Source: a virus
Reading direction: 5' to 3' (one strand)
DNA: 47,927 nt
Virus record (IMG/VR): IMGVR_UViG_3300009026_000015
Span: 1 to 47,927 of that record
In this document: positions 3,988-38,516 of the stretch, in pieces
Numbering within the stretch: the stretch's first letter is position 1
How the letters are laid out: each line of letters starts with the position of its first letter
Program-made: the position numbers and the translations under genes
Notes under the pieces: model-generated
What the model saw: only the letters and a program-made list of their open reading frames with translations
Told to the model about the DNA's origin: nothing
Database searches by the model: none

Positions 3988-4018
3988 AAACCGGCTCCCT
4001 TCTGTGTAGCCTTATCAA

Positions 4019-4447
4019 TCATATGAAGGCTTTGATGATCAGTGGATCGCCGGTCACCTTGCCTACAAGATCGAGGTCGTTAAAAATTACCAGTAGCGCT
4101 TCATCTTCGCCATCGGTCGTCTTGACGGTCCAGCGGTCGCCGCCGTACTTTGGCACGCGCACGAAGTCGCCCGGCTTGCACCAGCTTCCTTCAGGCCACG
4201 GGTCCATTGTCGTACGGTTCTTGAACGCAAGTTCACCCACCGAGATCACCTTCGCAATCTGGGTGTTCCACGCGTCCGTCTCGCGTGTCTCCGAGGTCAG
4301 GATAATCCCGCCCTTGGTCTTCTGCTTCGGCGTACGGATCTGCACCAGTACGCGGCTGCCGAATGGGTGTATGCCCGGTTCACAAGGCGGGAAGGCCTCG
4401 TCCAAGCTGGCATAACCAAATTCTACTTTGTTCGCTAATTCTTGCAT
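4019..4447 (-). CDS. GroES-like co-chaperonin (Cpn10 family)
   Basis: The core GSRVLVQIRTPKQKTKGGII, followed by L-T-S-E, then KVISVGELAFKN and PGDFVRVPKYGGD, matches the Cpn10 fold: first strand, mobile loop with KTKGGIIL, then the beta barrel. It would cap the host GroEL, as T4 gp31 does, to help fold a phage protein, most likely the capsid. I choose ATG at 4447 (142 aa, AAAGGAG 5 nt upstream) over an upstream in-frame ATG at 4525 that overlaps the previous gene. The N-terminal 25 residues (YASLDEAFPPCEPGI) extend beyond a minimal GroES. No GroEL gene is present. Confidence 0.82.
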   Translation of the reverse strand: MQELANKVEFGYASLDEAFPPCEPGIHPFGSRVLVQIRTPKQKTKGGIILTSETRETDAWNTQIAKVISVGELAFKNRTTMDPWPEGSWCKPGDFVRVPKYGGDRWTVKTTDGEDEALLVIFNDLDLVGKVTGDPLIIKAFI

Positions 4448-4457
4448 GTGCGCTCCT

Positions 4458-4652
4458 TTAGATAAACCTGTCCTTCGTCTCCCTCTCGGCGACCATGTCG
4501 ATGAGAGTTCGCTTCGCATGCTCAAGCCCCGCGTACATGCCTACAGCCCGACCGTAGTCGAATGGCTCTCGGCCCGAGGGGTGCTCCAGCGCTTCCCGTG
4601 CAAGCCGTGCCTGCTCAGTCTCCAAGCGCTGGAGAAGCATTTCTATCTTCAT
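4458..4652 (-). CDS. Small helical protein of unknown function (64 aa)
   Basis: A 64-residue, probably all-helical protein (MKIEMLLQRLETEQARLARE at the N-terminus) with alternating charged residues and no recognised domain. Its ATG shares bases with the stop of the upstream small reading frame (ATGA at 4652-4649), which suggests translational coupling. It lies between portal and co-chaperonin in the head operon. Confidence 0.6.
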   Translation of the reverse strand: MKIEMLLQRLETEQARLAREALEHPSGREPFDYGRAVGMYAGLEHAKRTLIDMVAERETKDRFI

Positions 4653-4785
4653 GCCGGTGTCTTTTTACTACCAGTTACCGAAACCTTCGGGTTCATGCCC
4701 ATCTTCATGAGCTTGTGCATGTTGGTGTTGTCAGCGGTAAAACTGCCAGCGGCCTTACCTTGCTCAGTGCTACGTCTTTCTTCAT
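4649..4785 (-). CDS. Small portal-linked protein, apparently split by a -1 frameshift
   Basis: Just after the portal stop, GGAAGGAAG precedes ATG at 4785. The ATG frame begins MKKDVALSK but then gives a short unlikely tail (26 aa in total). Slipping back one base after the AAG codon near 4759 gives GKAAGSFTADNTNMHKLMKM and then GMNPKVSVTGSKKTPA. That ends in a TGA overlapping the ATG of the next gene at 4652. The joined product would be 45 aa. The coupled stop and protein-like composition favour the joined frame. It is either a sequencing or assembly error of one G, a broken gene, or a true frameshift. Confidence 0.4.
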
Positions 4786-4797
4786 GTCGCTTCCTTC

Positions 4798-7383
4798 CTA
4801 TGGTTGCGGGTTGATCCCAGTGCCGGTTGACACTGCGAAGCGTTCGCCGCTTTGGATCTCGGCCTGCGCCAGTGCCATCGCGGTCTGATTGTCTTGCTGG
4901 TTCATGGCCATGCGAGCCTGAAGCTCGGCGGCCGTGCGTGCGTCCTCGGACTGCTGCTTCTGCTGCTCGATGGTGACCTTGGCCTGCAGCTCGGCGGCGT
5001 CCATCTGGGCGTCCTGCTGCATCTTCTGACCGTCCATCTGCAGCTTCTGCGCATCCATTTGTGTGCGCTGCGCCGCAGTTTGCGCATCCATTTGTGCGCG
5101 CTGTGCGTCCGCCTGCTGGTCGGCCTGCATCTTCTGCTGGTCGAGTTGCAGCTTCTGGCCTTCCAATGCCAGACGCGGATCTTGCATAGGCTGCTGCTGG
5201 AACTGCTGCATGACTTGCTGCGCCTGCTGGATGATCTGCGGTATCTGCGCAAACACCTGACTGCCCTCGGACAGAGCCGCCGTCGACGCCTCGGCCAGCA
5301 TGCGGTCGAGCGCCTTGCGTCCCTCGATGTCCTTCGGCTCCATGTCGCGCATCACGTCGCCCAGATCCTCGCCGTTCAGTGCCTCGGTCGACACGTCGAA
5401 TACGCTACTGGCGTACCAAAGCGCGACGTGCTCCTTGATGTGGTTCAGGATGGCGGGGATGAACACCGGCGCGAAGACTGGGTTCATGCCGAAGGTCGGC
5501 GACATCATGTACGACACGTGCGTCTGCAGGTGAGCCAGATGGTCTTGGTTCGGAAACGCTGTGACCGGCCGACCGAGTGACGCCGCGACGTTCTCGTTGA
5601 CTGCGTTCTGCTCGCTCGGCTCAACGGCTGGGTTGAGCAGATCCTTGGCGTTCGGTACCTTCAGCGTCTCGAGGATGCGCTCCTCGACCTTGCGCATGTT
5701 GTACATGCCGGGTATGGCCGCCGCGCGTTGCGCCACTGCCTGCACCTGCGCGTAGCGCTGCGCCTCGGAGAAGATGTTCGGGTCGCTGACTGGCACGACG
5801 TCAAGCACGCCGTCGAAGTCATCGCGCCGGGCAAGCTCGTCGCCCGCCTCTTTCTCGAGCTTCTCGTCGTCAAGGTTGAAGCCGTTGAGACGGTCGAGGA
5901 TGCGCAGCATGCGGCCCATTGCGTCATGCAGACGGCTGTGGATCGCGGAGTAGACGACTGCGCCCTGCTCCAGTTTGGCCAGTGTCGTGCCGACTGGTGC
6001 GTTCGGGTTGTTGTCGGCGATGTCCTCCATAGACGTGCGCACGACGCCCTTGGCCGCGTCGACCAAGAAGCCGAGCAGGCTGAACAGGACGGGCGACGGT
6101 GGATTGTAAGGCAGTGGCATGGCCAGCTTGCGCACGTCGTCCACGTTCAGGCCGCCCTCGATCTCCTCGATCTGACCCGGCTGCAGTGACAGGCTCTGCC
6201 CACCGGCCGTGCCGCCCTTGAGGCGGAGCATGGTCTGGCTGTTGCTGATGTGCGCGCTGTCGAGCAGTGCACGCAGTGCGCCAGTGGCTGCGCCGCTTAG
6301 GCCGCCGATCATGTGCGGCAGGCCGATTGGGTACGCACCGCGCCACGGTATGAACGGGAACTCGACGAACCAGTACATCTCGTCGCGGGCCTCGTCTTCC
6401 TCGTCCCAGTTGCGATAAACTGCAAGCACCTTGCCTGTCGTCTTGTCGACGCTGACGATGTACGGCGCATTGCCCTCGCCATCCTCGACTTCCATCGTGA
6501 CGTAGCATTCGTAGACGATGCGCAGTCCGTCCTCGTTGTAGCTGGTGCCGTCGCGGCCCTCGATGCGGTCGTTCGCCTGCCCTGCGACTGACTGCTCGGG
6601 CTCCATGCTGGCCGGTGCCAGATCCACGTCGCGGTACATGCCGTCACGCACACGGTTTTGATAGTCCAAACTTGTAATATATTGCACGTGGGTCTTGCGC
6701 TGCGCCGTGTAGAAGTTGGTCGCTGCGTAGGGCAGGAGCATGTCGTCAATGGGCACGAATAGGAACGTCGGCCGGTTGCGTGGCGTGTCCCAGCCGAGCT
6801 TCAGGTACTGCGCGCCGCCAAGCGGTAGCTGCGTCATGAGCTGCTCGAGCTCGGCGCGTACCTCGGGGCACTGCACCGTCATCTGCCAGTTGAGCAGGCT
6901 CGTCTTGCGCTTGGCCTTGTCGACCTTCTCTGCCGACATCGGTCCGCTAATGGCGTCCTTGGCTGGTCCGCCTGACGGGAAGATCTCCTTCATGGCGCGC
7001 GCCGCGAAGTCGACGCATGCCTCGGTCATGACGGGATGCACGACCTTCGACGCGCCCTCGAACTGCGCTCCGCCGGGTGCGTCATCGCCCAGCCCAGTGC
7101 GGCGCAGGCCGTCCTCGTACTGCTCGTCGCGCTTCTTGCGCGCGTCCTTGTCCTTGCTGATCAGGTCGAGGAGCTGGCTCGACAGGCTGCTCATCTCGCC
7201 CTCGGGCATGTCCTCGGCGAGGTTGGCGTAGAACTCGTTCTCGGCCTTCGGTGGCGCGTCGTCGTCCATGCGCACAATCGCGCCGCCGTCCTCGGTGTCC
7301 TCGACCGCGTCGTCGTCAACGTCGGGCAGATCCACGTACTCGCCTTCTGGCATTTCGTCTTCGTCCATTGTATCGTCCTTCAT
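4798..7383 (-). CDS. Portal protein with long Gln-rich C-terminal helix (861 aa)
   Basis: This is the dodecameric connector through which DNA enters the head. The gene directly follows the terminase large subunit (ATGA overlap at 7383-7380). The core has the usual portal pattern: SKVVHPVMTEACVDFAARAM, the DDMLLPYAATNF segment, and DNNPNAPVGTTLAKLEQGA before the central channel helix. An acidic N-terminus covers residues 1-60. The last about 150 residues are a Gln/Ala/Met-rich helix built from repeated QMDAQ/QKMQ units, like the C-terminal barrel of P22-type portals. ATG at 7368 is an alternative start with a better-spaced AAGGA. Confidence 0.85.
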   Translation of the reverse strand: MKDDTMDEDEMPEGEYVDLPDVDDDAVEDTEDGGAIVRMDDDAPPKAENEFYANLAEDMPEGEMSSLSSQLLDLISKDKDARKKRDEQYEDGLRRTGLGDDAPGGAQFEGASKVVHPVMTEACVDFAARAMKEIFPSGGPAKDAISGPMSAEKVDKAKRKTSLLNWQMTVQCPEVRAELEQLMTQLPLGGAQYLKLGWDTPRNRPTFLFVPIDDMLLPYAATNFYTAQRKTHVQYITSLDYQNRVRDGMYRDVDLAPASMEPEQSVAGQANDRIEGRDGTSYNEDGLRIVYECYVTMEVEDGEGNAPYIVSVDKTTGKVLAVYRNWDEEDEARDEMYWFVEFPFIPWRGAYPIGLPHMIGGLSGAATGALRALLDSAHISNSQTMLRLKGGTAGGQSLSLQPGQIEEIEGGLNVDDVRKLAMPLPYNPPSPVLFSLLGFLVDAAKGVVRTSMEDIADNNPNAPVGTTLAKLEQGAVVYSAIHSRLHDAMGRMLRILDRLNGFNLDDEKLEKEAGDELARRDDFDGVLDVVPVSDPNIFSEAQRYAQVQAVAQRAAAIPGMYNMRKVEERILETLKVPNAKDLLNPAVEPSEQNAVNENVAASLGRPVTAFPNQDHLAHLQTHVSYMMSPTFGMNPVFAPVFIPAILNHIKEHVALWYASSVFDVSTEALNGEDLGDVMRDMEPKDIEGRKALDRMLAEASTAALSEGSQVFAQIPQIIQQAQQVMQQFQQQPMQDPRLALEGQKLQLDQQKMQADQQADAQRAQMDAQTAAQRTQMDAQKLQMDGQKMQQDAQMDAAELQAKVTIEQQKQQSEDARTAAELQARMAMNQQDNQTAMALAQAEIQSGERFAVSTGTGINPQP

Positions 7384-24766: not shown

Positions 24767-24915
24767 GCAAGAAACGCACCAAAGCAGAGCTCAAGGCCAT
24801 AGCCTACGCACTGGCCGACGAGATCGAGACGCGCGCAGACGCCATCTGGCAACGCGCGCCGAAGCTCACATACGAGCAGTGCCAGACACTGGCGCTACTA
24901 CAGTTGGTGAAATGA
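24763..24915 (+). CDS. Small helical protein (50 aa)
   Basis: An open frame with an ATGA overlap at both ends: its start shares bases with the previous stop, and its stop overlaps the helicase start. It reads MSKKRTKAELKAIAYALADE and TYEQCQTLALLQLVK, a helical basic peptide. The couplings support it as a real gene. Confidence 0.6.
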   Translation: MSKKRTKAELKAIAYALADEIETRADAIWQRAPKLTYEQCQTLALLQLVK

Positions 24916-26276
24916 CCTTCAAGCCACACGACTATCAGAAAGAGGCTATGGCGCACCTGTACAAGGTGCGCCGTTCCGCTTTGTGGATGCCGATGGGCGG
25001 CGGCAAGACCGTGTCCACGTTGACTGCACTCGACAACCTGTCGACGGTCGAGGACGTATTCCCTGTTCTGGTGCTGGCACCGCTGCGCGTCGCCAAGTCG
25101 ACGTGGCCTGACGAGGTGGCGAAGTGGCCGCACCTGTCGCACTTGCGCGTCAGTGTCATCACCGGCACGCCGAAGCAGCGTCAGGCTGCGCTTGACACGC
25201 CAGCCGACCTCTACTGCACGAATTACGACAATCTTGTTTGGCTACGGACCGCACTCGGTGACGCGTGGCCGTTCAAGACCGTGGTGGCCGACGAGTTCAC
25301 GCGCCTGAAGTCCTACCGCATCCGTCAGGGTGGGTCGAGGGCACGTGCGCTGGGTCAGGTAGCCCACACGCACGTGACGCGCTTCATAGGGCTTACAGGG
25401 ACGCCTGCGCCAAACGGCGTCAAAGACCTTTGGGGGCAAATTTGGTTTCTCGACCAAGGCGAGCGGCTGGGCAAGACGTTCAGTGCCTTCGAGAGCCGTT
25501 GGTTCCGCAAGGGGTACGATGGCTACAGCCTCGTGCCGCACGCCCACTCGCAGGGTGAAGTAGAGGAGAAATTGAAGGACATCTGCCTGACGGTCAAAGG
25601 CCTGCGGGTCGACGAGCCAATAACGACGTCAGTCTACGTCGACCTGCCGTCGAAGGCGCGCGCTGCGTATGCCGAGATGGAAGAGGAGATGTTTGCCATC
25701 ATAAACGAGGAGGGTGTCGAGGCACCCAATGCGGCGGTTCGCACGCAGAAGTGCCTGCAGATCGCCAACGGGGCCATATACACGAATGACAAGGGAGTGT
25801 GGGAGGATGTGCACGCCGCGAAACTGGATGCGTTGGAGAGCATTATCGAGGAGGCCAACGGAGCGCCGGTCATTGTGGCCTATAACTTCAAGCACGATCT
25901 CGAACGTCTACAAGCTCGTTTCCGTCAAGGTCGGGTGCTGGACGCTGACCCTGATACGATCAGGCAGTGGAACGCCGGACGGGTGCCGCTACTATTCGCT
26001 CACCCTGCGTCGGCGGGGCACGGATTGAATTTAGCAGACGGCGGGAACATACTTGCCTTCTTCGGCGTTAACTGGAATTTAGAAGAGCACATGCAGATCA
26101 TCGAACGCATCGGGCCCATGCGCCAGAAGCAGGCGGGCTATGATCGCCCCGTGCATATTTACCCGATCCTCGCGCGCAACACGGTTGACGACATGGTCAT
26201 GGAGCGACTGTCGTCGAAGAAGAGCGTGCAGGAGATATTATTGGAAGCATTGAAGAGGAAGAAAAATGAGAAGTGA
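24912..26276 (+). CDS. SNF2-type DEAD/H helicase (454 aa)
   Basis: Superfamily 2 helicase of the phage SNF2 group. Motif Q/I: PHDYQKEAM and PMGGGKT (K32). Motif II is VADEFTRLKS, a DEFT variant. Motif III is GLTGTPAPNG near 160. The C-terminal helicase domain has SAGHGLNLADG and IERIGPMRQKQAG, where the usual Arg finger motif is slightly altered. It follows polymerase and nuclease, consistent with replication-fork or recombination remodelling. The start at 24912 overlaps the upstream stop. Confidence 0.87.
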   Translation: MTFKPHDYQKEAMAHLYKVRRSALWMPMGGGKTVSTLTALDNLSTVEDVFPVLVLAPLRVAKSTWPDEVAKWPHLSHLRVSVITGTPKQRQAALDTPADLYCTNYDNLVWLRTALGDAWPFKTVVADEFTRLKSYRIRQGGSRARALGQVAHTHVTRFIGLTGTPAPNGVKDLWGQIWFLDQGERLGKTFSAFESRWFRKGYDGYSLVPHAHSQGEVEEKLKDICLTVKGLRVDEPITTSVYVDLPSKARAAYAEMEEEMFAIINEEGVEAPNAAVRTQKCLQIANGAIYTNDKGVWEDVHAAKLDALESIIEEANGAPVIVAYNFKHDLERLQARFRQGRVLDADPDTIRQWNAGRVPLLFAHPASAGHGLNLADGGNILAFFGVNWNLEEHMQIIERIGPMRQKQAGYDRPVHIYPILARNTVDDMVMERLSSKKSVQEILLEALKRKKNEK

Positions 26277-26610
26277 TATTTGTGAGCACGGCATTTTGAT
26301 TGATGCTTGCGTGCCCTGCGCGGTAGCCATCTGGCGCGCCGAGGATGAAAAGGGTGAGGTGCTTGCGCCGGTGCCAAACGGAGTGGTGTCTATAGAACTT
26401 GATGCGATAACGCACCGCAAACTTTTAGAGTTTTGCGAGGGGCGCGACCTTTGCGACGAGATTTACTCGCTTGTACTGTGGGCACAAAAACAACCAAGTG
26501 TACCGGCAACGGTGAAAACCATCAGCAAGTATTACGACACTGAAAAATACAAGGCGATTGCCAAGGCGGAAATTAAGCGTACTTCTCCAGAAGTTCTTGA
26601 AGGCCAGTAA
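26266..26610 (+). CDS. Zinc-finger-like protein with short helical domain (114 aa)
   Basis: The N-terminus CEHGILIDACVPC gives a Cys-His/Cys-Cys pattern that could bind zinc. The middle (ELDAITHRKLLEFCEGRDLC) recalls ribbon-helix-helix or small helical DNA-binding units, and the end is basic. It overlaps the helicase by 11 nt. Its 3' end overlaps the late gene ending at 26573 on the other strand. Last gene of the early unit. Confidence 0.65.
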   Translation: MRSDICEHGILIDACVPCAVAIWRAEDEKGEVLAPVPNGVVSIELDAITHRKLLEFCEGRDLCDEIYSLVLWAQKQPSVPATVKTISKYYDTEKYKAIAKAEIKRTSPEVLEGQ

Positions 26611-28504
26611 CAACGCCATCAACGGACCCACCTTTTGCGAACCCGCGTTTGCGGATTAAATCGCGAAGTTCCTTTTCACCGCCACCGGCGACCGCACTTA
26701 GCATTTCGTCAAAATATTCTGGCAATACCATTTGGTTTTCCTTGCCAAAGTTCCGGTACGTTTCTTGCAATTTTGCGGCCAAATCTGGCGCGACTTTGTC
26801 GAACGCCGAAACGTACTCGGGACGCGCGTTGATGATATCTAGGTACGATTGACCGTAACGGCCCGCGTCAGTTTCCCAAGGGTTCTCCGCGTACATGCCG
26901 TGGAAGAAGCCTCCTTCTGGTTTGGCGGATCCAGTTTCACTGGCGGCTGCTTCAACATATTTTTTGAAGAGGGCGGGGTCCATGCCAAAGTTAGGAAGGC
27001 GAACGCCTTGCGGGCTTGAAATGATGCCCATGCTTTCTGGGTCGACACCAAGTCTTGATTGGAGGTCTGAAAGGACTTTAGCGCGGTCGTCGTCAATCGT
27101 TTGGCCGTAGTTAAGTTCGACGGCGTTTCTGGAGCCTACAGGAACGTCTTTGAACAGCTTATTACCTGCAATGGCCTTCTGACCCGTCATGAGGCCGTAA
27201 GTAGCCTCAATCGCCTTCATAAGGTTCATTGAAGACGGATCGATAGCCTTTCCTACTGGAATATCGTCGGTCTCCATGCCCTTTTTAATGGTGTTTGTGC
27301 CCAAGGCGTACTGCGCTTGGCTTCCGGGGCTGATGACACCCTCGTACACGCCGGGCCCTTGGAAGCGAGGCCCAGTAAGCGCGCCGAAGCCGAGTGCGAT
27401 ACGGTCGCGGGCTGCTTGGTCGTAAACCACGTCCGCGACGCGGTCGTCTAATTCTTGTTTTAATGCAAGTGGCGCTTCAGCAAGCTCGGGCATGATGCCG
27501 GTGTTTGAACCGAAGATGGTTTCGCGCGAGCCCTGTCCGTAGTGCCTCGGAAGGTCATCCGCGTAACTGTACGCAGCCTCGTTCGGTTGTATTTCGCCCG
27601 CGTCAATCTTTCCGCCGGACCAACCCGCGCCTTGCACGCGTCCCGTTGTCCAATCGAATGGCTGCTCCGAAAGTGTCGGGATAACTTGGTTGATTTGGTC
27701 GTCCATCCAACGGTGCTGCGCTTCGGTGGCCGTGCCCTCGTAGGGTTTTCCGTTCTTTCCCGGATAGCCCCACACGCGCATGTCCCAGATGTCGTGCACG
27801 GCGCGGGGGTCGATACTCGGGTCGGCAAATCCGCCTCCGATAGCGAGCTGCTGTTCAAACGGGCCGCGCTTTAGGCCAGTGGCAACGCCATTGGTATTGT
27901 ACACATCGGTGATGCCAGCGCCCATCGCCGTAGGGAAACGGCCAGTGTTCACCGGATCGCCTGAAATAATTTGGTTGTGGCCCTTTACGGTAAAGCCAGT
28001 GTTGGGTTTTACGCCCGTGCTTGACGATGTAACGGAAAAATTGCCCGCTACCTTGCGTGCCATTTCGGGATCTTCGCCGACGTGCGACATAATAGCTTTG
28101 CCGCTATCGTCATACCAAAGCGCGCCTTGTTTGCCTTTCTCGACCGCTTGCCGGTAATTCTCCCGCAAGACGGCTTCTTGTTCGGGCGTTGTAACACCTT
28201 GCGGGGCACCTGCTATTTGTTTGGACGGGGCTTGCGTGGTTGGCGCGGATGTCTTTTCCGTCTTTACGGCAAGCGGCTTCTTCTTCTTTTTACTGGCCGG
28301 TGGCTTGGTTGGTGCACCTACTTTTGGTTCTGCTTTAGCCGCGAGTGGTGTCTTCGGTGCGGGGGTCTTTGTCGGCTTAACCGCAAGATCCGACATGCCG
28401 AGTGCTTTGCGCACCGGCTTTTCAAGCGCATCAGGAATGTAATCGGAAGCGGTTTCTATGGCACTCTCGACAACCATTCGTTTAGGACTTTTGCGCTTTG
28501 CCAT
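26573..28504 (-). CDS. Large late protein with shared N-terminal tag, probable ejected protein (643 aa)
   Basis: The last gene of the late unit. Residues 1-45 (SPKRMVVESAIETASDYIPD, ALEKPVRKALG) are clearly related to those of the next protein upstream. A Pro/Lys/Ala-rich linker (about 45-100) follows. The body contains PGKNGKPYEGTATEAQHRWM and ELNYGQTIDDDRAKVLSDLQ, with no named domain, and the end has GFAKGGSVDG. The modular layout resembles phage polyvalent or internally packaged effector proteins. No enzyme motif is certain. ATG at 28504 is 2 nt after the previous stop. Confidence 0.7.
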   Translation of the reverse strand: MAKRKSPKRMVVESAIETASDYIPDALEKPVRKALGMSDLAVKPTKTPAPKTPLAAKAEPKVGAPTKPPASKKKKKPLAVKTEKTSAPTTQAPSKQIAGAPQGVTTPEQEAVLRENYRQAVEKGKQGALWYDDSGKAIMSHVGEDPEMARKVAGNFSVTSSSTGVKPNTGFTVKGHNQIISGDPVNTGRFPTAMGAGITDVYNTNGVATGLKRGPFEQQLAIGGGFADPSIDPRAVHDIWDMRVWGYPGKNGKPYEGTATEAQHRWMDDQINQVIPTLSEQPFDWTTGRVQGAGWSGGKIDAGEIQPNEAAYSYADDLPRHYGQGSRETIFGSNTGIMPELAEAPLALKQELDDRVADVVYDQAARDRIALGFGALTGPRFQGPGVYEGVISPGSQAQYALGTNTIKKGMETDDIPVGKAIDPSSMNLMKAIEATYGLMTGQKAIAGNKLFKDVPVGSRNAVELNYGQTIDDDRAKVLSDLQSRLGVDPESMGIISSPQGVRLPNFGMDPALFKKYVEAAASETGSAKPEGGFFHGMYAENPWETDAGRYGQSYLDIINARPEYVSAFDKVAPDLAAKLQETYRNFGKENQMVLPEYFDEMLSAVAGGGEKELRDLIRKRGFAKGGSVDGVVTGLQELLEKYA

Positions 28505-28506
28505 GC

Positions 28507-30435
28507 TTATCGACCTCGTCTAACAGTAAGTGGGTTATAGCTGAAATCGCGGTTGGCGTCTACACGACCGCCGATGGCGTAGCCTTCAAAGTGTTGAGCG
28601 ATTGCCTGCCACTCTTCAGGGTCCAAACGGTCAAGCCCCGTGGGGTCGTAAACACGACGCATCGGAACCATTTCGCTACTTGCAAACCCGCGCACCATTT
28701 CTGTTGTCTCAGGGATTGCGCTGATAATTTCTTCAGCTTGCTGCCCTGTGATGAAGCGGCCATCAGGTAGGCGCACGAGACCCGTGTTCTGCATGTCGCC
28801 GATGTTTGCCCAGTTCTGGCTTTTCACAAAGTCCTGCACAAAGGGTAGGTAGTCGTCCTTGGGCGCGCGGTTCTGCTTGCCCTTGATCTGGACGATCTCG
28901 TCAGGAAAGGAGGTAATAGGGGCGTACTCTTCACGCGCAATCGTGTCGCGGATTTGATGAAGAGCATCCTCACCCTCAAAGCTAATATTACCTTCGGCGT
29001 CCCAGTGGTTTGGTTGGTTAAGTTTAAGTATCTGATCCCAAGCCGTGTTATTGATAATGTCTTTATCGTCTTCAGGTAAATCATAGTACCCAGAAACGCG
29101 GTGTGGGCGTGTCTCAACCGTCACATGCGGCTCGCCCTTGGCGTCACGCAGCGAGAAGATGCGCGAGCGGCCTTCCATAACGTCGGGACAATAGTTGCCG
29201 ACGCAGTGGCCCATCGTGTCACCCTCGTACTTGAGCGCCTTACGCAACTCTTCCTCAACGTCGTAATTAGTTGGGCCGTCAGTCTTTGGTGGTGCCATCT
29301 CGACCCATTTCAGACCCATAGGGTTATCGTCGGCGTAATCTTTGAAGACGTGCGTTACGGGATTGTTCTGCGCGTCCAACGCCGCGCGCTCCATCTCCTT
29401 GACGCGGAACTGGTTGATTAGACCGACGCGTTCAGCCGCCTGCGCCAGACCCATGCGTCCGAGGCTTTCGGGGCGCACGGCCAGATCGCTTGGCAAACCG
29501 CTGCGGGGGTCCATAGCGTTACGCATTTCGTCAAGCATGTGTCCCATGCCCATCTTGTCCTGCAAGGCATATGTATCGCTGATACCGTATAGCTCGTCAG
29601 TAACTGGAGCCTTTTTGAGCCACGGCATGTTCACGGCTAGGGACGCGCCGTAATCATAACCCGCCCTTGGGTCGGAGCCAGCCGGTGTATAAAGCTGGTC
29701 GATGCCAAGGGCGCTGCCAATTTGTTGCCTGCTGATCGCGCCTGACGCTGCGTCCGACCACTCGTCAGGGGACAGTGCAACATGAAGCGCATCGCGCTCG
29801 GCCAGCGCGCGCATCGGATCGTCAGGGGTTCCCATTTCATTTTTAATGTAGCGCGGGGCTGCGCGAAGGAACCAGTTTTGCAATTCGCTCAGGGGTCCAG
29901 AAGCGTCGCGGGCAAGGCGTAGACTGTTGTCCGCGATACGGCGTGCTGCGTTTTCTGGTGAGCGGTTCGGGTTAACTTCGTCAACGAGACTTTGGGCCTT
30001 TGCGCGAGCCTCGTCCTCGCTGTTGAATATTATCGGTGTTCTATCGTTCAACACTACCCACCTGCCGTCGTCCGGCAGTTGTGCGACTTTTACGCCAAGA
30101 TCAGACGCTGTTTGCCCCCCGATGCTTTTATCAACAAACCACTGGCCGCCTTTTGTCTTGGCGGCAAAGCGTGGAAGTTTTGGCCCCGGCGCGGGGAGCG
30201 CAAGTTGTTTTGGCGGCGCAGGTAGCGCAAGTGGCTTTGGCGCGGGGCGAGGTACGGCTAACGGTTTAGCCTTCCTCGGCGTTACCGCCATAGTAGGCTT
30301 TACGGCCGCACGCGCCGTTCTTGGCACGTCAACGCCAAGCGCGCGGCGCAGCGGCGTCTCAATGGCGTCGGGGATATAGTCCGACGCGGCGCGCAGTACG
30401 CCCTCAACAGCAAGTCGTTTCGGACCTCTGGCCAC
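28507..30435 (-). CDS. Late protein with N-terminal tag and PcfJ-like domain (642 aa)
   Basis: GTG start at 30435, oddly close to AAGGAG; the paralogue at 28504 supports this N-terminus. Residues 1-45 (GPKRLAVEGVLRAASDYIPD, AIETPLRRALG) match the neighbour, followed by a Pro/Ala/Lys linker. Near residue 410 stand MGHCVGNYCPDVMEGRSRIF, SLRDAKGEPHVTVE and later VQIKGKQNRAPKDDYLPFV. These fit the PcfJ family (HCV..Y motif and IFSxR..xxxxTVE), otherwise known from conjugative elements. It ends with GYAIGGRVDAN. A virion-delivered protein of unknown action is inferred. Confidence 0.7.
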   Translation of the reverse strand: MARGPKRLAVEGVLRAASDYIPDAIETPLRRALGVDVPRTARAAVKPTMAVTPRKAKPLAVPRPAPKPLALPAPPKQLALPAPGPKLPRFAAKTKGGQWFVDKSIGGQTASDLGVKVAQLPDDGRWVVLNDRTPIIFNSEDEARAKAQSLVDEVNPNRSPENAARRIADNSLRLARDASGPLSELQNWFLRAAPRYIKNEMGTPDDPMRALAERDALHVALSPDEWSDAASGAISRQQIGSALGIDQLYTPAGSDPRAGYDYGASLAVNMPWLKKAPVTDELYGISDTYALQDKMGMGHMLDEMRNAMDPRSGLPSDLAVRPESLGRMGLAQAAERVGLINQFRVKEMERAALDAQNNPVTHVFKDYADDNPMGLKWVEMAPPKTDGPTNYDVEEELRKALKYEGDTMGHCVGNYCPDVMEGRSRIFSLRDAKGEPHVTVETRPHRVSGYYDLPEDDKDIINNTAWDQILKLNQPNHWDAEGNISFEGEDALHQIRDTIAREEYAPITSFPDEIVQIKGKQNRAPKDDYLPFVQDFVKSQNWANIGDMQNTGLVRLPDGRFITGQQAEEIISAIPETTEMVRGFASSEMVPMRRVYDPTGLDRLDPEEWQAIAQHFEGYAIGGRVDANRDFSYNPLTVRRGR

Positions 30436-30438
30436 TCC

Positions 30439-33400
30439 TTAGTTCTTTCCGAGTAAACGCTTGGCAGTCAGCGCAGCTTGGTAGCCACGATTGGTGCCAA
30501 CTGCTTTCTTCACGGCGTACTTACCGGCCGCACCTGCGCCTGACGCTCCGGCGTAGAACGCGGCGTTGATCGGGGCCTCCTCGCGGATCGTACTCGCGAC
30601 ACCTCCACCCAGAATGGGGCGACCCGCTTTATCCCGCAGTACCCGCCCAGCTTTGTCCCTCATAGGCTCGTCGCGCATCGTCCGTGCTTGGCCTGCGGCG
30701 TACAACGCGCCTTGGCCTAAGTCGTCGGCCGCACCGGCAAGGAAGCGTGCCGCACGAGGTGCACTTGCGAGTACCCGCGCGCCGCCAAGGCTTGGTGCAA
30801 GCATCGACCCGCCGATCATGCCTGCGCCCTCAAGCGCCATAGCCATCTTGGGGTTAGCTTCGCCGTAACGCTCCTGCATCATGCGAATGCGATTGACTTC
30901 CTTACGGTATGCGTTTGGGTCTTTGGACGCGAGTGTGCGCAAGCGTGCCTCGATCTCGTCACCGAAGCCGAAGGTCAGGCCTTGGCCAAACGTGCGAGCC
31001 GCATTGGCATAATCGTAGCCTTTCGACTTCGGCTGGCCACCATTGCCAAACCTCTGCACGGGGCCACCACGATACATGCCCAAAGGAGGATCGGCAAAGT
31101 CTGCAAGTTCTTTGACGCGATTGTTTGGGTTCTTAATGTCGTAGTAATCGTTCTGCACGGGATCGAACTTGGCCTTTATGCCGCCAACCGTGAAAATAGT
31201 TTCTTCACCCACTGGGGCGGGTGCCGCTGCGGGTGCCGGTTCAACCGCCGCTGGTGCGACCATTGCCGGTGCAGCTTGCGGTGTCGTCTCTGGCGGTACG
31301 TAACCCTCAAAACTTGCATCGGCAGGTATCGACGGCATGGCACCGGCATACATGCGCTCCAAGCGTTCCTGCTCGGTTTCCTGCAATTTGGTGCCAAGTT
31401 GTGCCTCGGCGAGGAACAACTGCGGGTACTTATTGTAAAGCTCCGCAATATCTGACCCAGTGTCCGCAATGCGCTTGCCGACAGGCGAGCCTGTTATCGC
31501 GTCAAGTCCGCGCTTGCCGAGGCCCGCTGCGACGCCTGTGCCGTACGCCAATTCACCTACAACACGTGGCATAAACGCCGGTGCCGCAAGCAAAGTTAAT
31601 GGGTTTGTATACGCGGCGGGAATACCCGCGCCGAGTGTCACGGCGGCGTTGAGACCGCGAGGCTTAAACGTATTGACGTTAGAGCCTGCGAGTGTTGGGA
31701 TAATAGTTCCCTCGGGGTCAAGTTCGTTAAGGATGTTGACCTGTTCAGCGCGCTGGCCGTAGTTTGTGCTTGCGTTGTTGCGGCCGACGGCGGCCTGCAA
31801 TTTACGCGTTGCACTCGATACGTTAGGCGACTTTCCGCGAGCTGCCGAAAGGCCAAGTTCAGTCTCAATTTGCTGCGCTTGCTTGATTGCCGTTTCGTAA
31901 TCGCGCATGGTTTTGGCGTAGATGTCGTCATGCTTGACGAGTTCCTGCCGCACGGCGTTGTATGCAGTGCTCGCAATGCGCGAAGCTTTTCGGTCGTACT
32001 GTCCGCCAATCTTAGAACCGATTTCAAACATATCCTGCTTGAACTGGTCCAGCTCAAGGGGAAGTAGCAAGTCTGGGTTGTTCGCGGCCTTCGCTGCGTA
32101 CTCCTCGACAAAGTCGTTCATCTGTTCCCACGCAAGGTGGTCAGGCGGACGGGGGCCCTTACGATCAGACCAAGTGTCGTACGACTTTGGTTTGATTTTG
32201 CCCATGCGCAGGCGGACGTTGTCTATGCTTAATGGTGTTGGAACTCGACCAAACTGGGCCATTCCCGCACGATACGCATCGGAGGCTTTCTCGCGTATTT
32301 TTTCAACGGCGGTACGTGCTGTGCTGATGAGATTTTCGCCGTCAACTTCGCCGCGCATGGCCGTTGTAAAGGCCTCGCTGCGCGGCGTTACGCCTTGGGC
32401 TCCGCGCTCAAAGCCAGCGCCTGCCGCTTCGCGCACCGACGCGCCGCCCACACCAGACGGGAATGCTACGACTTCACTCGGCAGGTTTTCAAAGCCCTGA
32501 GTAAATCCGGGCGCGCGGTTCTTGGCGGCGTTGTACACAGAAGGCAGGCCTTCCGTTACGGCGCTAATTCCTGCCGACAAGGGGTCCATAATCTTACCGG
32601 CCGTCGCTACACCCTCGCCGAACTTACCAGCTTTGCCCGGTAATCTTGCTAGTAGCGACCCGCCACCAGTTGTAAAAATAGACAGGTCGGCAGCGAGGCC
32701 AAGGGGATCTTTAATACTCGTACGCTTGAACGCATCCCAGCTCCCGTAACGCTCCGCCATGGCGTCCGCCATGGCCGTTACCGTAGGGCCGTCGAACTGG
32801 CCTTGACCGAGTTCGGCCGCGAGATCCGTAAATGTTTTAACACTACCGGCTCGCTCGCCCGTCAGTGCGCTAAGGACGACATCCTTCGGTAAAGCGCTCG
32901 CGCCTTCGAGGATCTGCACAGCGCTTTCAGGTGCGTTGCGCACACGCTGCGCGATGCCCTCGAATAGACCTGCGTTCTCGGATGCGGCCTTGTCAACTTC
33001 GCGATAGTCAATGGCAAGCGGGGTTGCGCGCTGCTCTGGCGTTTGCTTGAAAAAGTCTTGGTTGTCCAAAAGCGCCTGCTGATAGTAATCATCACGCTGC
33101 GATGGTGGAACGTGGCCCTCGCTGACAGCCCTGTCAGCAAGAAGCTTGGCAAACGCCTCTGGCGTCCCGTTCGGGCTGGTGGAGATTGCGTTCAGGTCAA
33201 CTTCGGTTTCTGGTGAAAAGCGCCAGCCTTGAATGTCTTGCCCAGCAATCTGCGCGCCTTCAGGTATGCCCGCAAGAACGTCAGCCGACGGTCCGCCAGC
33301 TTCACGCTCTGCGCGAACGCGGTCAACCTCTACCTGCCTATCGTAAGCGTTAATCTTCGGCGCATAAAGAGTTAAGGGGTCCGAACCAAGTACTTGCTCA

Positions 33401-34032
33401 ATGGCAATAGGCTTGATACCCATAGGTGCCAACTGTTCGTTCAAAGCTGCAGCGCGCCCCGAGAATGCGCTGCGCAGGTCTTGGTAAGGAAGCCGATACG
33501 TGTCGATGCGATTGCGCATGAAGGCAATAATTCTTTTGCGCGTTTCGGGCGTGAACTTACCGGAGTTATTCCACTGGTTCAAAGCCCACTGTGGAAGGTA
33601 GTCTTTGGCAACTTGCACGTTATTGTAACGCTCGATGTCGCCCTGCATAACTGCGCCGGTAGGATCTTGCACCTTGGCGGCGAGTGTGACGAGGTCTTGA
33701 TCGCCTTCCCCGCCTGTAGGCACACCCAGTGCTGCGGTAAAATACCGCATACCCTGACGGTATATCTTGACTTCGTCCAAGCCTTCAAACGTCTTCAAGT
33801 CGTCACGCGCGTTTGTTTGCATGTCAAGGAGAGTTTTAAGTTTCGCATTCGTCAGTTCGGCTTGGGCTTTAGGCCCAGCGTACGGAGCCGTTGCGGTATC
33901 CGTTTGGATGTTGATGCCTTTTTGCACATTGCTAAGCTGGTCGCCAGTTAAGGAAACGCCAGCCTGCACTTGCTTCGCTGACGGAGCCCGAGTGACAGGG
34001 CTTGAAGAAGCTGCGTAAGGGTCTTTTGCCAT
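30439..34032 (-). CDS. Large internal virion (DNA ejection) protein (1197 aa)
   Basis: The longest gene. The product begins MAKDPYAASSSPVTRAPSAK and has extended helical regions (residues 40-400), a Gly/Ala-rich segment with small hydrophobic patches near 450-480 and 840-870, and a C-terminal glycine-rich part (FGQGLTFGFGDEIEARLRTL, GMIGGSMLAP, AGASGAGAAGKYAVKK). A segment GMYRGGPVQRFGNGGQ near 1000 carries the RGGxV motif of neighbouring virion proteins. It fits the large ejected core proteins of podoviruses that pass DNA into the cell. No lytic transglycosylase motif is visible. Confidence 0.7.
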   Translation of the reverse strand: MAKDPYAASSSPVTRAPSAKQVQAGVSLTGDQLSNVQKGINIQTDTATAPYAGPKAQAELTNAKLKTLLDMQTNARDDLKTFEGLDEVKIYRQGMRYFTAALGVPTGGEGDQDLVTLAAKVQDPTGAVMQGDIERYNNVQVAKDYLPQWALNQWNNSGKFTPETRKRIIAFMRNRIDTYRLPYQDLRSAFSGRAAALNEQLAPMGIKPIAIEQVLGSDPLTLYAPKINAYDRQVEVDRVRAEREAGGPSADVLAGIPEGAQIAGQDIQGWRFSPETEVDLNAISTSPNGTPEAFAKLLADRAVSEGHVPPSQRDDYYQQALLDNQDFFKQTPEQRATPLAIDYREVDKAASENAGLFEGIAQRVRNAPESAVQILEGASALPKDVVLSALTGERAGSVKTFTDLAAELGQGQFDGPTVTAMADAMAERYGSWDAFKRTSIKDPLGLAADLSIFTTGGGSLLARLPGKAGKFGEGVATAGKIMDPLSAGISAVTEGLPSVYNAAKNRAPGFTQGFENLPSEVVAFPSGVGGASVREAAGAGFERGAQGVTPRSEAFTTAMRGEVDGENLISTARTAVEKIREKASDAYRAGMAQFGRVPTPLSIDNVRLRMGKIKPKSYDTWSDRKGPRPPDHLAWEQMNDFVEEYAAKAANNPDLLLPLELDQFKQDMFEIGSKIGGQYDRKASRIASTAYNAVRQELVKHDDIYAKTMRDYETAIKQAQQIETELGLSAARGKSPNVSSATRKLQAAVGRNNASTNYGQRAEQVNILNELDPEGTIIPTLAGSNVNTFKPRGLNAAVTLGAGIPAAYTNPLTLLAAPAFMPRVVGELAYGTGVAAGLGKRGLDAITGSPVGKRIADTGSDIAELYNKYPQLFLAEAQLGTKLQETEQERLERMYAGAMPSIPADASFEGYVPPETTPQAAPAMVAPAAVEPAPAAAPAPVGEETIFTVGGIKAKFDPVQNDYYDIKNPNNRVKELADFADPPLGMYRGGPVQRFGNGGQPKSKGYDYANAARTFGQGLTFGFGDEIEARLRTLASKDPNAYRKEVNRIRMMQERYGEANPKMAMALEGAGMIGGSMLAPSLGGARVLASAPRAARFLAGAADDLGQGALYAAGQARTMRDEPMRDKAGRVLRDKAGRPILGGGVASTIREEAPINAAFYAGASGAGAAGKYAVKKAVGTNRGYQAALTAKRLLGKN

Positions 34033-34712
34033 TATTTTATCTCCCTTGTGCGACCGTCGGTCGTGCGAAATCTCATACCTTTTTTGTTTGGATCTTGCGC
34101 TGCAACTAGAGCCTGCTCCGGCGTCAGCACCGGCAGGTTTTGATCTTCGACAAGTTCATTGGTGTCCATGTCGGTAAGGTCACCAGTAAGCGGATTAAAC
34201 CCAGTGCGGCGCGTCTTCGGCTTCAACAGCGGCGCTGCCTTTCCTAAGAAATCCGCTGCGGTCTTAGCGCGGTCGACAGCGTAACCGCCAGTTGTTCCCA
34301 TATACTGATCCTGAAACGCCGCCAGTTGTGCGTCGCGTGCATCGCGGGCCTTTTTCTCCGCCTCGGAGATGTCGCTGAAAGCGCCAGAGATCTTGCCTAT
34401 AGTGCCACCAATACCCGTGTACTTCCTTGGTGCGAGTAGCGCCTTGGATAGCATGAAGAGCTGCTCAGACTGCGTTGGTCCGCGATAGCGCTCTTTGATG
34501 CGAGCCTCGCCAGCCTCAAAACGCTTCTTGTCGGACGCTTCTTTCTCGGTCTGTGCGCTCAACTGCTGCCTATACAACGCCTGCAAGAGGCCCGGCACTT
34601 TTGTTGTGTCGCCAAGTTGCGCAAAGTCGATGTCGCCGCCTTTGGCCGCCAAGCTGGACATAGCCGCTACCTGTGCTTGATCTTCGGCGCTGGTGTCGTC
34701 TTCGTACATCAT
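34032..34712 (-). CDS. Virion-associated protein (226 aa)
   Basis: An acidic start (MMYEDDTSAEDQAQVAAMSS) followed by helical segments and a Gly-rich turn (YTGIGGTIGKISGAFSDISE), then a basic tail. It lies between the large ejection protein and the Gln/Ala-rich 359-aa protein, with TAATG and ATGA overlaps on both sides. Likely an internal virion or assembly protein; no family is recognised. Confidence 0.65.
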   Translation of the reverse strand: MMYEDDTSAEDQAQVAAMSSLAAKGGDIDFAQLGDTTKVPGLLQALYRQQLSAQTEKEASDKKRFEAGEARIKERYRGPTQSEQLFMLSKALLAPRKYTGIGGTIGKISGAFSDISEAEKKARDARDAQLAAFQDQYMGTTGGYAVDRAKTAADFLGKAAPLLKPKTRRTGFNPLTGDLTDMDTNELVEDQNLPVLTPEQALVAAQDPNKKGMRFRTTDGRTREIK

Positions 34713-35788
34713 TTAATTCCCAACAGCTTATTGAGCGCCGATCCAGACTGCGAATTGCCCAATATGGCACCAAGGCCTGCAAGCGCGCCGCCGACTGTCT
34801 CGCCTGTGCTTGGCTTAAGCTCTGGCTGGTAGCCGAGTGGCACGATGCCTTCTTCTCTGCTTGCCTTCGGTACGCCAGCGGCAACGCCACCGAACGTCTG
34901 CAACATAGCACTGATTTGCTCTTGTGGGTAGCCCTGCTGACGCAAGAAGTCGGCGTATGCCACGTCGAGGTTCTTCTGAGCCTGACCCTGCTGCGCCGCA
35001 CCGACTTGCTGCAGCGCGCCCGCGCCGGTAATGCCGAGTGTCTGCGCAGCCGTACCGAGTTCGCCAAGCTGTCCTGCACCAGCAAGCTGACGCGACAGAT
35101 CCTGCCCGCCGAGGCTGCCTGCCGTCGTGGCGAGGGCGGCTTGGCGGGCCAAATCAGTGCTCGCAAGGCCTGTGGCATCGGTAAACCCGCTGCGAAGGGC
35201 AATCGCCTGCTGCCCGAGGATGTCGGCGTTTGTGTCGCGGAGGGCGCGCGCCGTGTCGGTCATCATGCCCGATGGCGTGCCGCCCATGTTTTCGTCGCGC
35301 GAACCAAAGCCGAGCTGACCCGCTTGGATGTAGCGCCCCTCGGCGGCCGGAAGGAGGTTTTCGTTTAGGTTGCGTCGGCCCAGTTCGCCAATGCGGTTGA
35401 CGACCTGATCCGTGTACGGGTTCATGTACTGGCCGATGTTCGACACGGACGATGCGCCTGCCGCACCGAGGTACGGCGCGGCCGCGCCAAGGCCGCCCGG
35501 CGCGTTGATCGCACCCTGCGTTGCCTGCGTTGCGGCATTTAGGGCTGGCTGATAGGCAGTGGCTGCTTGACCGGCCATGCCGAAGCCTTGCTGCATCGTT
35601 GGCGAGAACTCCGCTACGCGCGGGCCTTGATACGTCGGCAGTGGCTGCGCGGCGAGGGCCTGCTGATTGGACAGCAACTGCATGGCGTAGTTCGTGTACC
35701 AGTCGGGCAGCACGGTCTCGCTGGTGAGCGACTTGAACGTCGAGCCAGTGGGCAACTGCCCGTTATTGAGAAAGTCTGTAAGCGCCAT
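34709..35788 (-). CDS. Internal virion protein, Ala/Gln/Gly-rich (359 aa)
   Basis: A low-complexity helical protein (GMAGQAATAYQPALNAATQA, LGAAAPYLGAAGAS, QQVGAAQQGQAQKNLDVAYA) with conserved-looking blocks MNPYTDQVVNRIGELGRRNL and DFLRQQGYPQEQISAML. Comparable proteins occur in marine and freshwater podoviruses next to the ejection proteins. A role as an internal or core virion protein is likely but unproven. It is coupled to both neighbours. Confidence 0.65.
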   Translation of the reverse strand: MALTDFLNNGQLPTGSTFKSLTSETVLPDWYTNYAMQLLSNQQALAAQPLPTYQGPRVAEFSPTMQQGFGMAGQAATAYQPALNAATQATQGAINAPGGLGAAAPYLGAAGASSVSNIGQYMNPYTDQVVNRIGELGRRNLNENLLPAAEGRYIQAGQLGFGSRDENMGGTPSGMMTDTARALRDTNADILGQQAIALRSGFTDATGLASTDLARQAALATTAGSLGGQDLSRQLAGAGQLGELGTAAQTLGITGAGALQQVGAAQQGQAQKNLDVAYADFLRQQGYPQEQISAMLQTFGGVAAGVPKASREEGIVPLGYQPELKPSTGETVGGALAGLGAILGNSQSGSALNKLLGIK

Positions 35789-38283
35789 TATGCTGGTCCT
35801 CCGGCCATGTACTGTTCTGGCCTCTTTGCGTTATCACTGAATTTACCACGGGCAAGCTTCTTACCCTTCTGCTTGCGGACTTTGACGCGGAAGCTGTCAA
35901 GCAACTTCGCGCCCGCCTTGTTAGATCCGTTGCCGAGTAGCGCCACGGTCTCTGCGTCGAAGACGTACTCGCCGTCGGACAGGAGTGCGGGGATCTTGTC
36001 GTCGCGACCGTCACCGGCACCCTCGACGGCAAAGCCACCACGCGCAAAGCGCATGCTATCAACTTCTGGAGCGTACATCGACGGGCCTGCGGGGTTGTTT
36101 GGTATCGGCGTCGTGATCGGCTGCGGTAGTGTAATCTGCGGCGTGGCCATACGCATTGGCTGCGGTGCAAATGCGTCCTCTGCCGTCGTGCCCTCGTAGC
36201 CAGTGTACGCGCGGCTGGTGTTCGGCGCGCCCTGTGTGGCGTAGTCGAAGAAGCTCTGCTCTGGGCCATAGCCGTAGCGGTAATAGTTCTGCGGGCTGTT
36301 GAAGCCTTGTGCCGCCAGTGTGGACGCAGGAAGCGCACCACCGCCAGCGCCGCCCAACAGGGTCGACGTAGGCAGTTGCTTGCCGAAGACCGAGCTAAGA
36401 CCGCCCATGCCTGCCGGTATGATGCCGCCAGAGCCACCGCCCTTGTCACCGAGGAGGCCGCCAACGGTGCTTACGCCAAGGCTGGCGAGACGCAAGTAGT
36501 CGGCGATGTCTTTGGCGGTGAGCTTCTTATTTACGTCTGTCGATGGTGGCTCAAAGAAGTTGTCAGGCAGCAGACTGGTAGGAGCGCCACCCAAAGAGGC
36601 AAGCAGTTCGTCTGGGGTAAGACTTTCGCTTCCAGTAACGACGATGTCGTTTGCCGCTGCGGTACCGCCAGCACCCGCGCCGCCTGCCGTGGCAGCGGTA
36701 AGGCCACCAACGCCAGACAAAGCGAGGAGTATTTCATCTGGAGTAAGACTTTCCAGTCCGCCGCCAGTGACGACCATCGGGTTCTTTGCCGCTTCGATGT
36801 CTTCCGCCGTTGGTTCCTGCGCAGTGGGCTGTTGCTGCGGAAGGGGCTGCGCTGCGTTAAATGCGCCCGAAAGCATCGCGTTGACGGGAATGGAGAACGC
36901 TGCGCCGAAGGGCGAACCAGAACCCGACACTGGCGGAGCCCTGTTCCCGCTGACAACGATAGTGTCGTCTGCGGGTGTAGGTTCTACTGTTGGCGTAGGC
37001 TCCGACGGTAGCGGTTCAGGCAGTCCGCCCTTGGGCAAGAAGTCTGTGGCTATTGGTTCGAACACGCCAGACAGCGCGCCGCCGTAATTTGGAACAGGAG
37101 CTACGGCTCTATTTGCAATTACGTTTATCCCGTCGTAAGGGGCCATAGGCTCGGCTACCGGTGACGGCTGTTGCGCGAACTGCTCGGCTGGCGTCTTGTA
37201 GCCAGTCAAGCCACCTAAATTGTTTGATGCAGCGGATGTCAAACCTTGCAGCACACCAGAACCCGCGCCTTGTAACGCCTTCGACAATCCTGTTACGACG
37301 ATGTCGCCCGTTGCCTCCCCTGCGGCGTTAGATAGACCACTTGCCGCAGCTTCGCCAAGGCCGAGTGCGCCGCCAGCTTTTCCGAGTGCGCCGCCAATAG
37401 CTTTGTTGAGGCCCGAGGCGTTGCCTATGCCCGCAGTTGCGCCGCCGATAAGTGCGGACGTGAGCGGGTCTTTGCCGGACAGGAAGCCGCCGAGGCCACC
37501 AGCGGCAGCGCCCGCAGCTATCTGCACACCAAGGCTCGCGCCACCAGTTGCGATGGCTGCGGCGATAGGTAAGGCAAAACCCGCAATTTTACCGACGATA
37601 CCGAGGCCGTTCGGGCCTTGGTTCTCGGCAACGCGGTCGTATTTGCCTGTGGCTGGGTTAAGTACTTCAACGCCCCAATATGCGTTCTTGGGGTCGTTTA
37701 TAGTAAGTTGGTTGGCTTGCTGGAATACGTTGCGCAGGCCCTCTCCGCCCGCGCCAGAATACACAACTTTCCCATCTTTGCCGCCGTTGACGAGGCGATA
37801 CGTGGCGTTAGGGTCTACGGGTACAAAGCCCGGCATTGGCTCAATATATTTTCCATTTGGATCATACGTTGCGGGGTCGGCGGGCTTTGGCGAACCTACG
37901 TCGCGATAGCGTGCTGGCAAGCCCATTTCGTTTGCAAAGTAATAGCCAGTCTGTCCTCTACTCGTAATTGGGTCTAGGTTCATGCCCTCGGTAGGCGCAA
38001 CATAAGGGTTTACGTCTAGTATCGCTTGTAGGCGTTCAGCCGCTGTCCGGCTGTCGCCGCCGCCCATTCCACCAGTGTACGAACCGCCTTGCTCTGGCCC
38101 GCCGAGCATCGGATTGGCAAGGTCAAAGCCGACAACCGCTTCGCCCATCATCGGGCCGCCAAGGCCGTAGTCGCTGAACTCCATGTCATCAATCAAAGGT
38201 TCGCCTTCATTGACGCGTCCGCCGATAGCGTAGCGAGGTACAGCCGCTTGCAAGTAGTTACTGAAGCCGGGGATGTAGTTCAT
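35788..38283 (-). CDS. Large virion protein with glycine zipper and repeated IVVTG segments (831 aa)
   Basis: The start at 38283 (MNYIPGFSNYLQ) overlaps the preceding stop (TAATG); a longer frame to 38325 is not supported. Residues 1-40 contain YAIGGRVNEGEP. A membrane-active glycine zipper spans about 230-310 (VGKIAGFALPIAAAIATGG and further). The segment IVV(T/S)G occurs several times (DIVVTGLSK, TIVVSGNR, DIVVTGSESLTPDELL, MVVTGGGLESLTPDEILL). The C-terminus has GGFAVEGAGDGRDDKIPALL then SDGEYVFDAETVALLG, a block found in many marine phage virion proteins. An ejection or membrane-spanning virion role is inferred. Confidence 0.7.
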   Translation of the reverse strand: MNYIPGFSNYLQAAVPRYAIGGRVNEGEPLIDDMEFSDYGLGGPMMGEAVVGFDLANPMLGGPEQGGSYTGGMGGGDSRTAAERLQAILDVNPYVAPTEGMNLDPITSRGQTGYYFANEMGLPARYRDVGSPKPADPATYDPNGKYIEPMPGFVPVDPNATYRLVNGGKDGKVVYSGAGGEGLRNVFQQANQLTINDPKNAYWGVEVLNPATGKYDRVAENQGPNGLGIVGKIAGFALPIAAAIATGGASLGVQIAAGAAAGGLGGFLSGKDPLTSALIGGATAGIGNASGLNKAIGGALGKAGGALGLGEAAASGLSNAAGEATGDIVVTGLSKALQGAGSGVLQGLTSAASNNLGGLTGYKTPAEQFAQQPSPVAEPMAPYDGINVIANRAVAPVPNYGGALSGVFEPIATDFLPKGGLPEPLPSEPTPTVEPTPADDTIVVSGNRAPPVSGSGSPFGAAFSIPVNAMLSGAFNAAQPLPQQQPTAQEPTAEDIEAAKNPMVVTGGGLESLTPDEILLALSGVGGLTAATAGGAGAGGTAAANDIVVTGSESLTPDELLASLGGAPTSLLPDNFFEPPSTDVNKKLTAKDIADYLRLASLGVSTVGGLLGDKGGGSGGIIPAGMGGLSSVFGKQLPTSTLLGGAGGGALPASTLAAQGFNSPQNYYRYGYGPEQSFFDYATQGAPNTSRAYTGYEGTTAEDAFAPQPMRMATPQITLPQPITTPIPNNPAGPSMYAPEVDSMRFARGGFAVEGAGDGRDDKIPALLSDGEYVFDAETVALLGNGSNKAGAKLLDSFRVKVRKQKGKKLARGKFSDNAKRPEQYMAGGPA

Positions 38284-38516
38284 TAGCTTGTACCTTCGAG
38301 CATTGGATATACACGCATTCCCCACTCACGCCAATCAGCGAACTGATATGGATCAGGAATAATTTGCTGCGTAAATGGTGAGGCACGCAACAGCCCTATT
38401 GCCCAGTCCCGCCACAAGGCCTCCTCGGGTGGCGTACCGAATGACCACGCGTCGTTGACGGACAGTATAACCGAACAGGCCCAGTCTTGCCAAGTCATTC
38501 CGCGAGGGTCGATCAT
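38283..38516 (-). CDS. Small late protein (77 aa)
   Basis: A Trp-rich 77-residue protein (GMTWQDWACSVILSVNDAWS, DWREWGMRVYPMLEG). It starts by ATGA overlap after the nozzle gene and ends by TAATG overlap before the 831-aa gene. No motif is recognised; probably a tail or ejection accessory protein. Confidence 0.65.
   Translation of the reverse strand: MIDPRGMTWQDWACSVILSVNDAWSFGTPPEEALWRDWAIGLLRASPFTQQIIPDPYQFADWREWGMRVYPMLEGTS

Follow-up and report, generated by a model that had tools for sequence, protein, structure and literature searches.

At the end of its late gene block, the virus record analysed here (the window, 47,927 bases) carries a locus in which a constant N-terminal tag precedes exchangeable protein bodies, one of them a conserved module with a PcfJ domain at its end. 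Behind such tags, two exchanges of cargo were found, both with clean borders. On balance, we lean slightly towards the view that this is a variable locus for phage-delivered effector cargo, resembling the internal proteins of phage T4, with PcfJ among its cargoes and perhaps acting as a GNAT-like transferase.

The minus strand of the window holds genes for terminase, portal, a GroES-like protein, the major head protein, virion structural proteins and fibres. The PcfJ gene is part of this late block, with virion-protein and tail-fibre genes further upstream. The block ends, in order, with a DNA-ejection-like gene, a 226-aa and a 1,197-aa protein (both unknown), and then the PcfJ protein with its companion of 643 aa (Table 1). 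Genes in this part are separated by a few bases or overlap slightly, and past the block lie convergent plus-strand genes, a helicase gene among them. Scanning the region for promoters and terminators gave no more than shuffle level. The GroES-like co-chaperonin gene (4019-4525) lies in the head module, and such a gene adjoins PcfJ-module genes in relatives too.

Table 1. Features of the late-block end and its flanks (window numbering; residues are those of the encoded protein)
Feature	Coordinates	Strand	Basis
Helicase gene; anchors locus by synteny on its other side	24879..26276	+	phrog_62, E=8e-151; 97% identical in L268
643-aa companion protein; tag as in PcfJ protein, body different ('type II'), FAKGGSV C-terminal	26573..28504	-	ORF; tag alignment
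AxGGxV motif of companion, FAKGGSV	26621..26641	-	Motif scan
Tag of companion	28385..28504	-	Tag alignment; DNA similarity to L268 restarts at companion start codon
Tagged PcfJ-module protein, 642 aa, GTG start	28507..30435	-	ORF; PF14284 match; homologs
C-terminal AxGGxV motif, YAIGGRV, residues 619-625	28561..28581	-	Motif scan; enriched right after module
PcfJ domain, residues 393-558, GNAT-like predicted fold	28762..29259	-	PF14284; model of homolog L138; Foldseek
QIKGKQN, residues 516-522, end of last core strand and loop after it	28870..28890	-	Conservation; predicted secondary structure
HCVG, residues 410-413	29197..29208	-	98-100% conserved; 48/48 in plasmid/chromosomal PcfJ
Upstream half of module, residues 181-388 (Y196, D206, R209, H218, W226)	29272..29895	-	Conservation and model
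KTKGGQW, residues 93-99, start of conserved module	30139..30159	-	K93, G96, G97 kept in 97-100% of 64 relatives, which had been found without that motif
Pro/Lys/Ala-rich linker, residues about 40-88	30172..30318	-	Sequence; similar linkers in L002-L007
N-terminal tag, residues 1-39 (VARGPKRLAVEGVLRAASDYIPDAIETPLRRALGVDVPR)	30319..30435	-	Common to downstream gene; 38/39 identical to L268 ParB/ART tag
Late protein of 1,197 aa carrying MYRGGPV; anchors locus by synteny	30439..34032	-	Upstream of PcfJ gene; motif scan and L268 comparison
DNA-ejection-protein-like gene	34709..35788	-	phrog_4287, E=8.9e-6; upstream of PcfJ gene

The first-pass annotation had recognised PcfJ from HC, IFSLR...HVTVE and KGKQN motifs. 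All of them are present in the 642-aa ORF at the positions claimed (HC, residues 410-411; IFSLR, 426-430; HVTVE, 437-441; KGKQN, 518-522), and an HMM search bore out the assignment: PF14284 matched residues 399-445 (29101-29241) with E=6.8e-8 and 32.9 bits, above the curated Pfam cutoff of 25, and a repeat search gave the same result. Two PHROGs without assigned function match the same segment, and the protein had no match among the NCBIfam models or in PADLOC. The local Pfam match ends ahead of KGKQN, which we nevertheless count as part of the domain because plasmid and chromosomal PcfJ proteins carry an equivalent Q-x-[RK]-G-x-x-N. Judged against 48 such members, the protein contains all three family motifs, that is, HCVG-x-Y (410-415), T-x-E (439-441) and Q-x-[RK]-G-x-x-N (516-522).

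The PcfJ part forms the end of a larger module. A first scan returned 78 relatives, and a scan seeded on PcfJ-domain motifs alone identified at least 552 viral contigs matching the PcfJ end. In the PcfJ-motif-seeded scan, the upstream half was also present in 75 of the 79 best ORFs and the remaining four run off contig ends; thus, the unit is about 380 aa long. Sixty-four sequences of the PcfJ-motif-seeded set share E404, G405, C411, V412, G413, Y415, I426, S428, R430, H437, T439, E441, Q516, K518, G519, N522 and D535 as invariant residues, together with Y196, D206 and R209 of the upstream half. YIKNEMG was rejected as a conserved motif, since its near-invariance came from sets seeded on YIKNEMG itself (exact in only 6 of 65 sequences of the PcfJ-seeded set). 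A genome search with the full alignment returned no relatives.

The 48 plasmid and chromosomal PcfJ domains mostly keep EG-x2-M-x-HCVG-x-Y, I-x-S-x-R, T-x-E and Q-x-[RK]-G-x-x-N; E404, G405, H410, C411, V412, G413 and T439 are invariant, and G519 (42/48) is nearly so. The phage module differs from them in having a conserved upstream half of ~210 aa, a KGGNW block and the AxGGxV border. Two related phage subfamilies deviate at Cys411, with Ser instead (GHSVRGYE) or GWCT in place, the latter without QxxG; both argue against one strict chemistry. The Ser form (GHSVRGYEPP) occupies the PcfJ position of the same module in L022, L030, L036, L056 and others, and a third form at this position (WCTQ...YG...PHxQ) follows the same upstream half in L039, L047, L063, L071 and L075. 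Module-bearing ORFs also occur as tandem pairs, Ser-type beside Cys-type, upstream of a portal-sized gene (L045, L056 and L059).

The N-terminus of the PcfJ protein is shared with its companion (49% identity over 63 aa including the linker, E=2.6e-14). The companion itself had no family match in Pfam or PHROGs and none in the phage record collection. Adjacent genes with this common tag were found in the window and in L002, L003, L004 and L007, where the neighbour bodies are of two unrelated types; the tag alignment has 12 invariant columns, and the bodies behind it are unrelated. A different tag stands on both proteins of L005 (77% over 43 aa). A third is shared in L134 by the PcfJ protein and a 1,922-aa neighbour (67% over 49 aa) with ART-PolyVal and DUF7178 domains (Pfam) and matches to phrogs annotated as ParB C-terminal domain and endolysin; this tag was seen on proteins both with and without PcfJ. 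A search with the first tag alone recovered ART and further bodies without known family, and the tag could therefore serve as a sequence handle for finding other phage-delivered effectors.

The exchange of bodies could be followed most closely in L268. Proteins flanking the locus there are 93-97% identical to those of the window, apart from the products of the two upstream genes closest to it (67% and 42%). Here, the same tag bears a ParB-like and ART-PolyVal protein in place of PcfJ (ART-PolyVal, 59 bits, above cutoff; ParB, 17.5 bits, below cutoff). DNA identity between the two records is ~95% up to about tag codon 39, is random thereafter and returns at the start codon of the companion. The second swap, between L262 and L002, also breaks at the tag edge, with ART-PolyVal above cutoff in L262. 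PcfJ was not found in the L268 or L262 records, both of which may be fragments. Chimeric assembly is an unlikely source of the swap, as tag plus PcfJ and tag plus ART each recur, in frame, in separate metagenomes. At the same place, L266 and L267 have one tagged gene of a third body type, with a DUF7178 match below cutoff. It was also observed that the L005 companion (3937-5745) and the L262 ART protein (4445-5995) have a 126-aa block in common (89% identical); shuffling therefore extends beyond the tag.

Breaks at the tag edges are also what would be seen if the tag DNA merely offered homology for recombination, the shared tag being a scar of tandem gene duplication and recombination at short homologies and having no role of its own. 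We consider this improbable, because the tags are kept at the protein level (the invariant columns above) despite unrelated bodies, and because three unrelated shared tags across lineages are not explained by a single duplication.

With regard to gene position, most of the relatives examined have the PcfJ gene between the terminase (TerL) and portal genes, with a GroES-like gene next; in the subgroup to which the window belongs, it is found where the late block ends. The sole match in the phage record collection, a PcfJ-like protein of phage DSL-LC04 (OR003939; an isolate record) with 36% identity over residues 271-558, is likewise encoded between terminase and portal genes and not at the late-block end. 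The module is often part of large polyvalent-type proteins, with complete-looking relatives of up to 2,266 aa. Fusions among 40 full-length relatives included ART-PolyVal (4/40) and single cases of a cell-wall hydrolase (Hydrolase_2), GP88, DUF6884 and DUF7178.

A virion-delivered role of the PcfJ protein is thus supported indirectly, by the late-block position with an ejection-like gene, by the terminase-portal position and the fusions in relatives, and by a tag behind which PcfJ and ART-PolyVal are exchanged. This agrees with one part of the earlier proposal, that the protein is delivered with the virion. The extension, in which PcfJ would act on the recipient cell in both modes of DNA transfer, goes beyond this support, as PcfJ is also present on chromosomal contigs and on plasmids that are typed as non-mobilizable. 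Alternatively, the tagged proteins might stay unpackaged and act late in the producing cell (in assembly, lysis or superinfection exclusion), with the tag as a membrane or complex anchor. Proteins encoded in the late block would be made late anyway, which would fit such a role; however, the exchange with ART-PolyVal, the terminase-portal location of the gene in most of the relatives examined and the ejection-protein-like gene in the same block all speak against it, as does the view that polyvalent phage proteins encoded near virion genes are injected (PMC5512222). We therefore regard a role in the producing cell as unlikely.

Among known systems, two offer parallels to the locus. Injection has been inferred for late-gene polyvalent proteins (Iyer et al., 2017; PMC5512222), a paper whose main text does not mention PcfJ and whose two GNAT families are RimI-like. 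Those proteins resemble the ones described here in being late-gene products with exchangeable enzymatic domains, including ART-PolyVal, encoded beside virion genes and predicted to be injected. The window protein is likewise encoded among late virion genes, and it has one recognised module, with fused domains in relatives. The main feature here is different, namely a short constant tag with swapped bodies and clean borders. The internal proteins of T4 are highly variable and constant only in their capsid targeting sequence (PMC3012670), which has 10-20 residues and is proteolytically removed (PMC3012670, PMC5694885). Like these proteins and Alt, which enter the host with the DNA, the proteins of our locus have an N-terminal sequence that stays constant while the bodies vary. 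On the other hand, the tag is longer (~39 aa plus a long linker) and has no known cleavage, and the likeness is drawn as an analogy. If the tag directs packaging, it would represent a T4-independent case of a transferable virion-loading signal.

The module is also marked at its C-terminal side. AxGG occurred 3 times in 49,991 residues inside modules versus 132 times in 15,487 residues of the 160 aa that follow, counts that come from related sequences and are not independent. It was also found in 41 of the 50 cases in which more than 300 aa come after the module; AxGGxV is therefore a border mark and not solely a C-terminal one. It might represent a processing site or a docking motif. AxGGxV-type motifs are also present in the companion and in the 1,197-aa and 845-aa proteins of the window. 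Across 35788-38325, 30439-34032 and 26573-28504, the forms YAIGGRV, FARGGFA, MYRGGPV and FAKGGSV recur, and YAIGGRV is identical in 28507-30435 and 35788-38325.

A literature search of incomplete coverage found no fold or function for PcfJ, which is widespread, and structure prediction now gives it a testable function class. The model of the module core (pLDDT 81, pTM 0.70) had GNATs as its leading credible PDB matches, which were not significant. A compact homologous domain of 161 aa (L138) was modelled by AlphaFold from a 103-sequence alignment with pLDDT 89.6 and pTM 0.83, and all 50 PDB matches listed by Foldseek for this model were GNAT acyltransferases (best E 1.1e-3, prob 1.0, TM 0.28-0.43), in a redundant list with many GCN5 entries that covers RimI, ESCO1/2, GCN5/PCAF, NatD, serotonin acetyltransferase and GNA1. 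The predicted order of strand, two helices, three strands, loop and helix is that of GNATs such as GCN5, RimI and ESCO1; in contrast with these, only the GNAT front half is predicted, the later, C-terminal strands being absent from the model. Sequence comparison gave no support for a GNAT in Pfam at E<=10, in a PDB sequence search or by hhalign against eight E. coli GNATs. YhbO, the best of these eight and 49 other E. coli proteins (E 1.5e-4 uncorrected, 52 residues), was judged to be a chance match. The reading of QIKGKxN as the CoA loop QxxGxG of GNATs was also weakened, because QxKGxxN lies in another register, closer to the strand, and N522 is its fixed residue. In the model, the conserved polar residues S428, R430, H437, T439, E441, Q516 and K518 occur at alternating positions of three adjacent strands and adjoin the HC and Q-x-K-G-x-x-N loops; this alternation suggests that the conserved residues may cluster. 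Taken together, we regard a GNAT-like fold of the PcfJ domain as roughly an even call, and transferase chemistry as rather doubtful.

The conserved residues permit a different reading of a delivered effector, in which PcfJ would be a Cys-dependent hydrolase or protease, with Cys411, His437 and Asn522 ordered as in papain, or else a domain that binds nucleic acid; PcfJ or another enzyme might then cleave at the AxGG motifs. HC and N522 are near-invariant in the main group and are kept in 48/48 and 44/48 of the plasmid and chromosomal forms, respectively, but His437 is retained in only 17/48 of the latter. The Ser in place of Cys in one subfamily recalls nucleophile swaps, and the GG motifs lie at module borders; however, the GWCT subfamily retains Cys while dropping other residues, and the fold matches are GNATs, with no protease among the 50 listed. 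Such an activity thus seems unlikely.

Under the preferred reading, that of a locus for delivered effector cargo, each gene would encode a protein built from the constant tag, a flexible linker and a body that can be exchanged, in most cases with an AxGGxV-type motif at the C-terminal side. At assembly, the tag would guide the protein to a place inside the particle or on the ejection apparatus; the protein would then enter the new host along with the DNA, and its body would act early on host or defence targets. For the body in the window, the ~380-aa module ending in PcfJ with a predicted minimal GNAT-like fold, the likeliest activity would be to modify a host molecule in the manner of an acyl- or aminoacyl-transferase, given this fold and the polar residues on neighbouring strands. 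More tentatively, and with rather less than even confidence, we propose that the late block of tailed phages in this group ends in a cassette site where unrelated effectors (the PcfJ module, ParB/ART and three or more other bodies) replace one another downstream of an unchanging delivery tag, and that PcfJ, as one such effector, is an unrecognised GNAT-like transferase employed in parallel by phages and plasmids.

Some additional PcfJ contexts were observed outside phages. Two PcfJ ORFs lie near each other on genome contigs of Aureimonas, Microscilla and Bacteroidota (L246, L232, L245 and L249). On a Streptococcus plasmid (L128; NZ_CP135592, 2416-8183), PcfJ is flanked by the genes of an AcrIIA9-family anti-CRISPR protein and an SNF2-type protein. 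AcrIIA9 has a PcfK domain (PMC6739104), and the proximity of PcfJ to an AcrIIA9-family gene gives no more than a suggestive link between the earlier proposal and plasmids.
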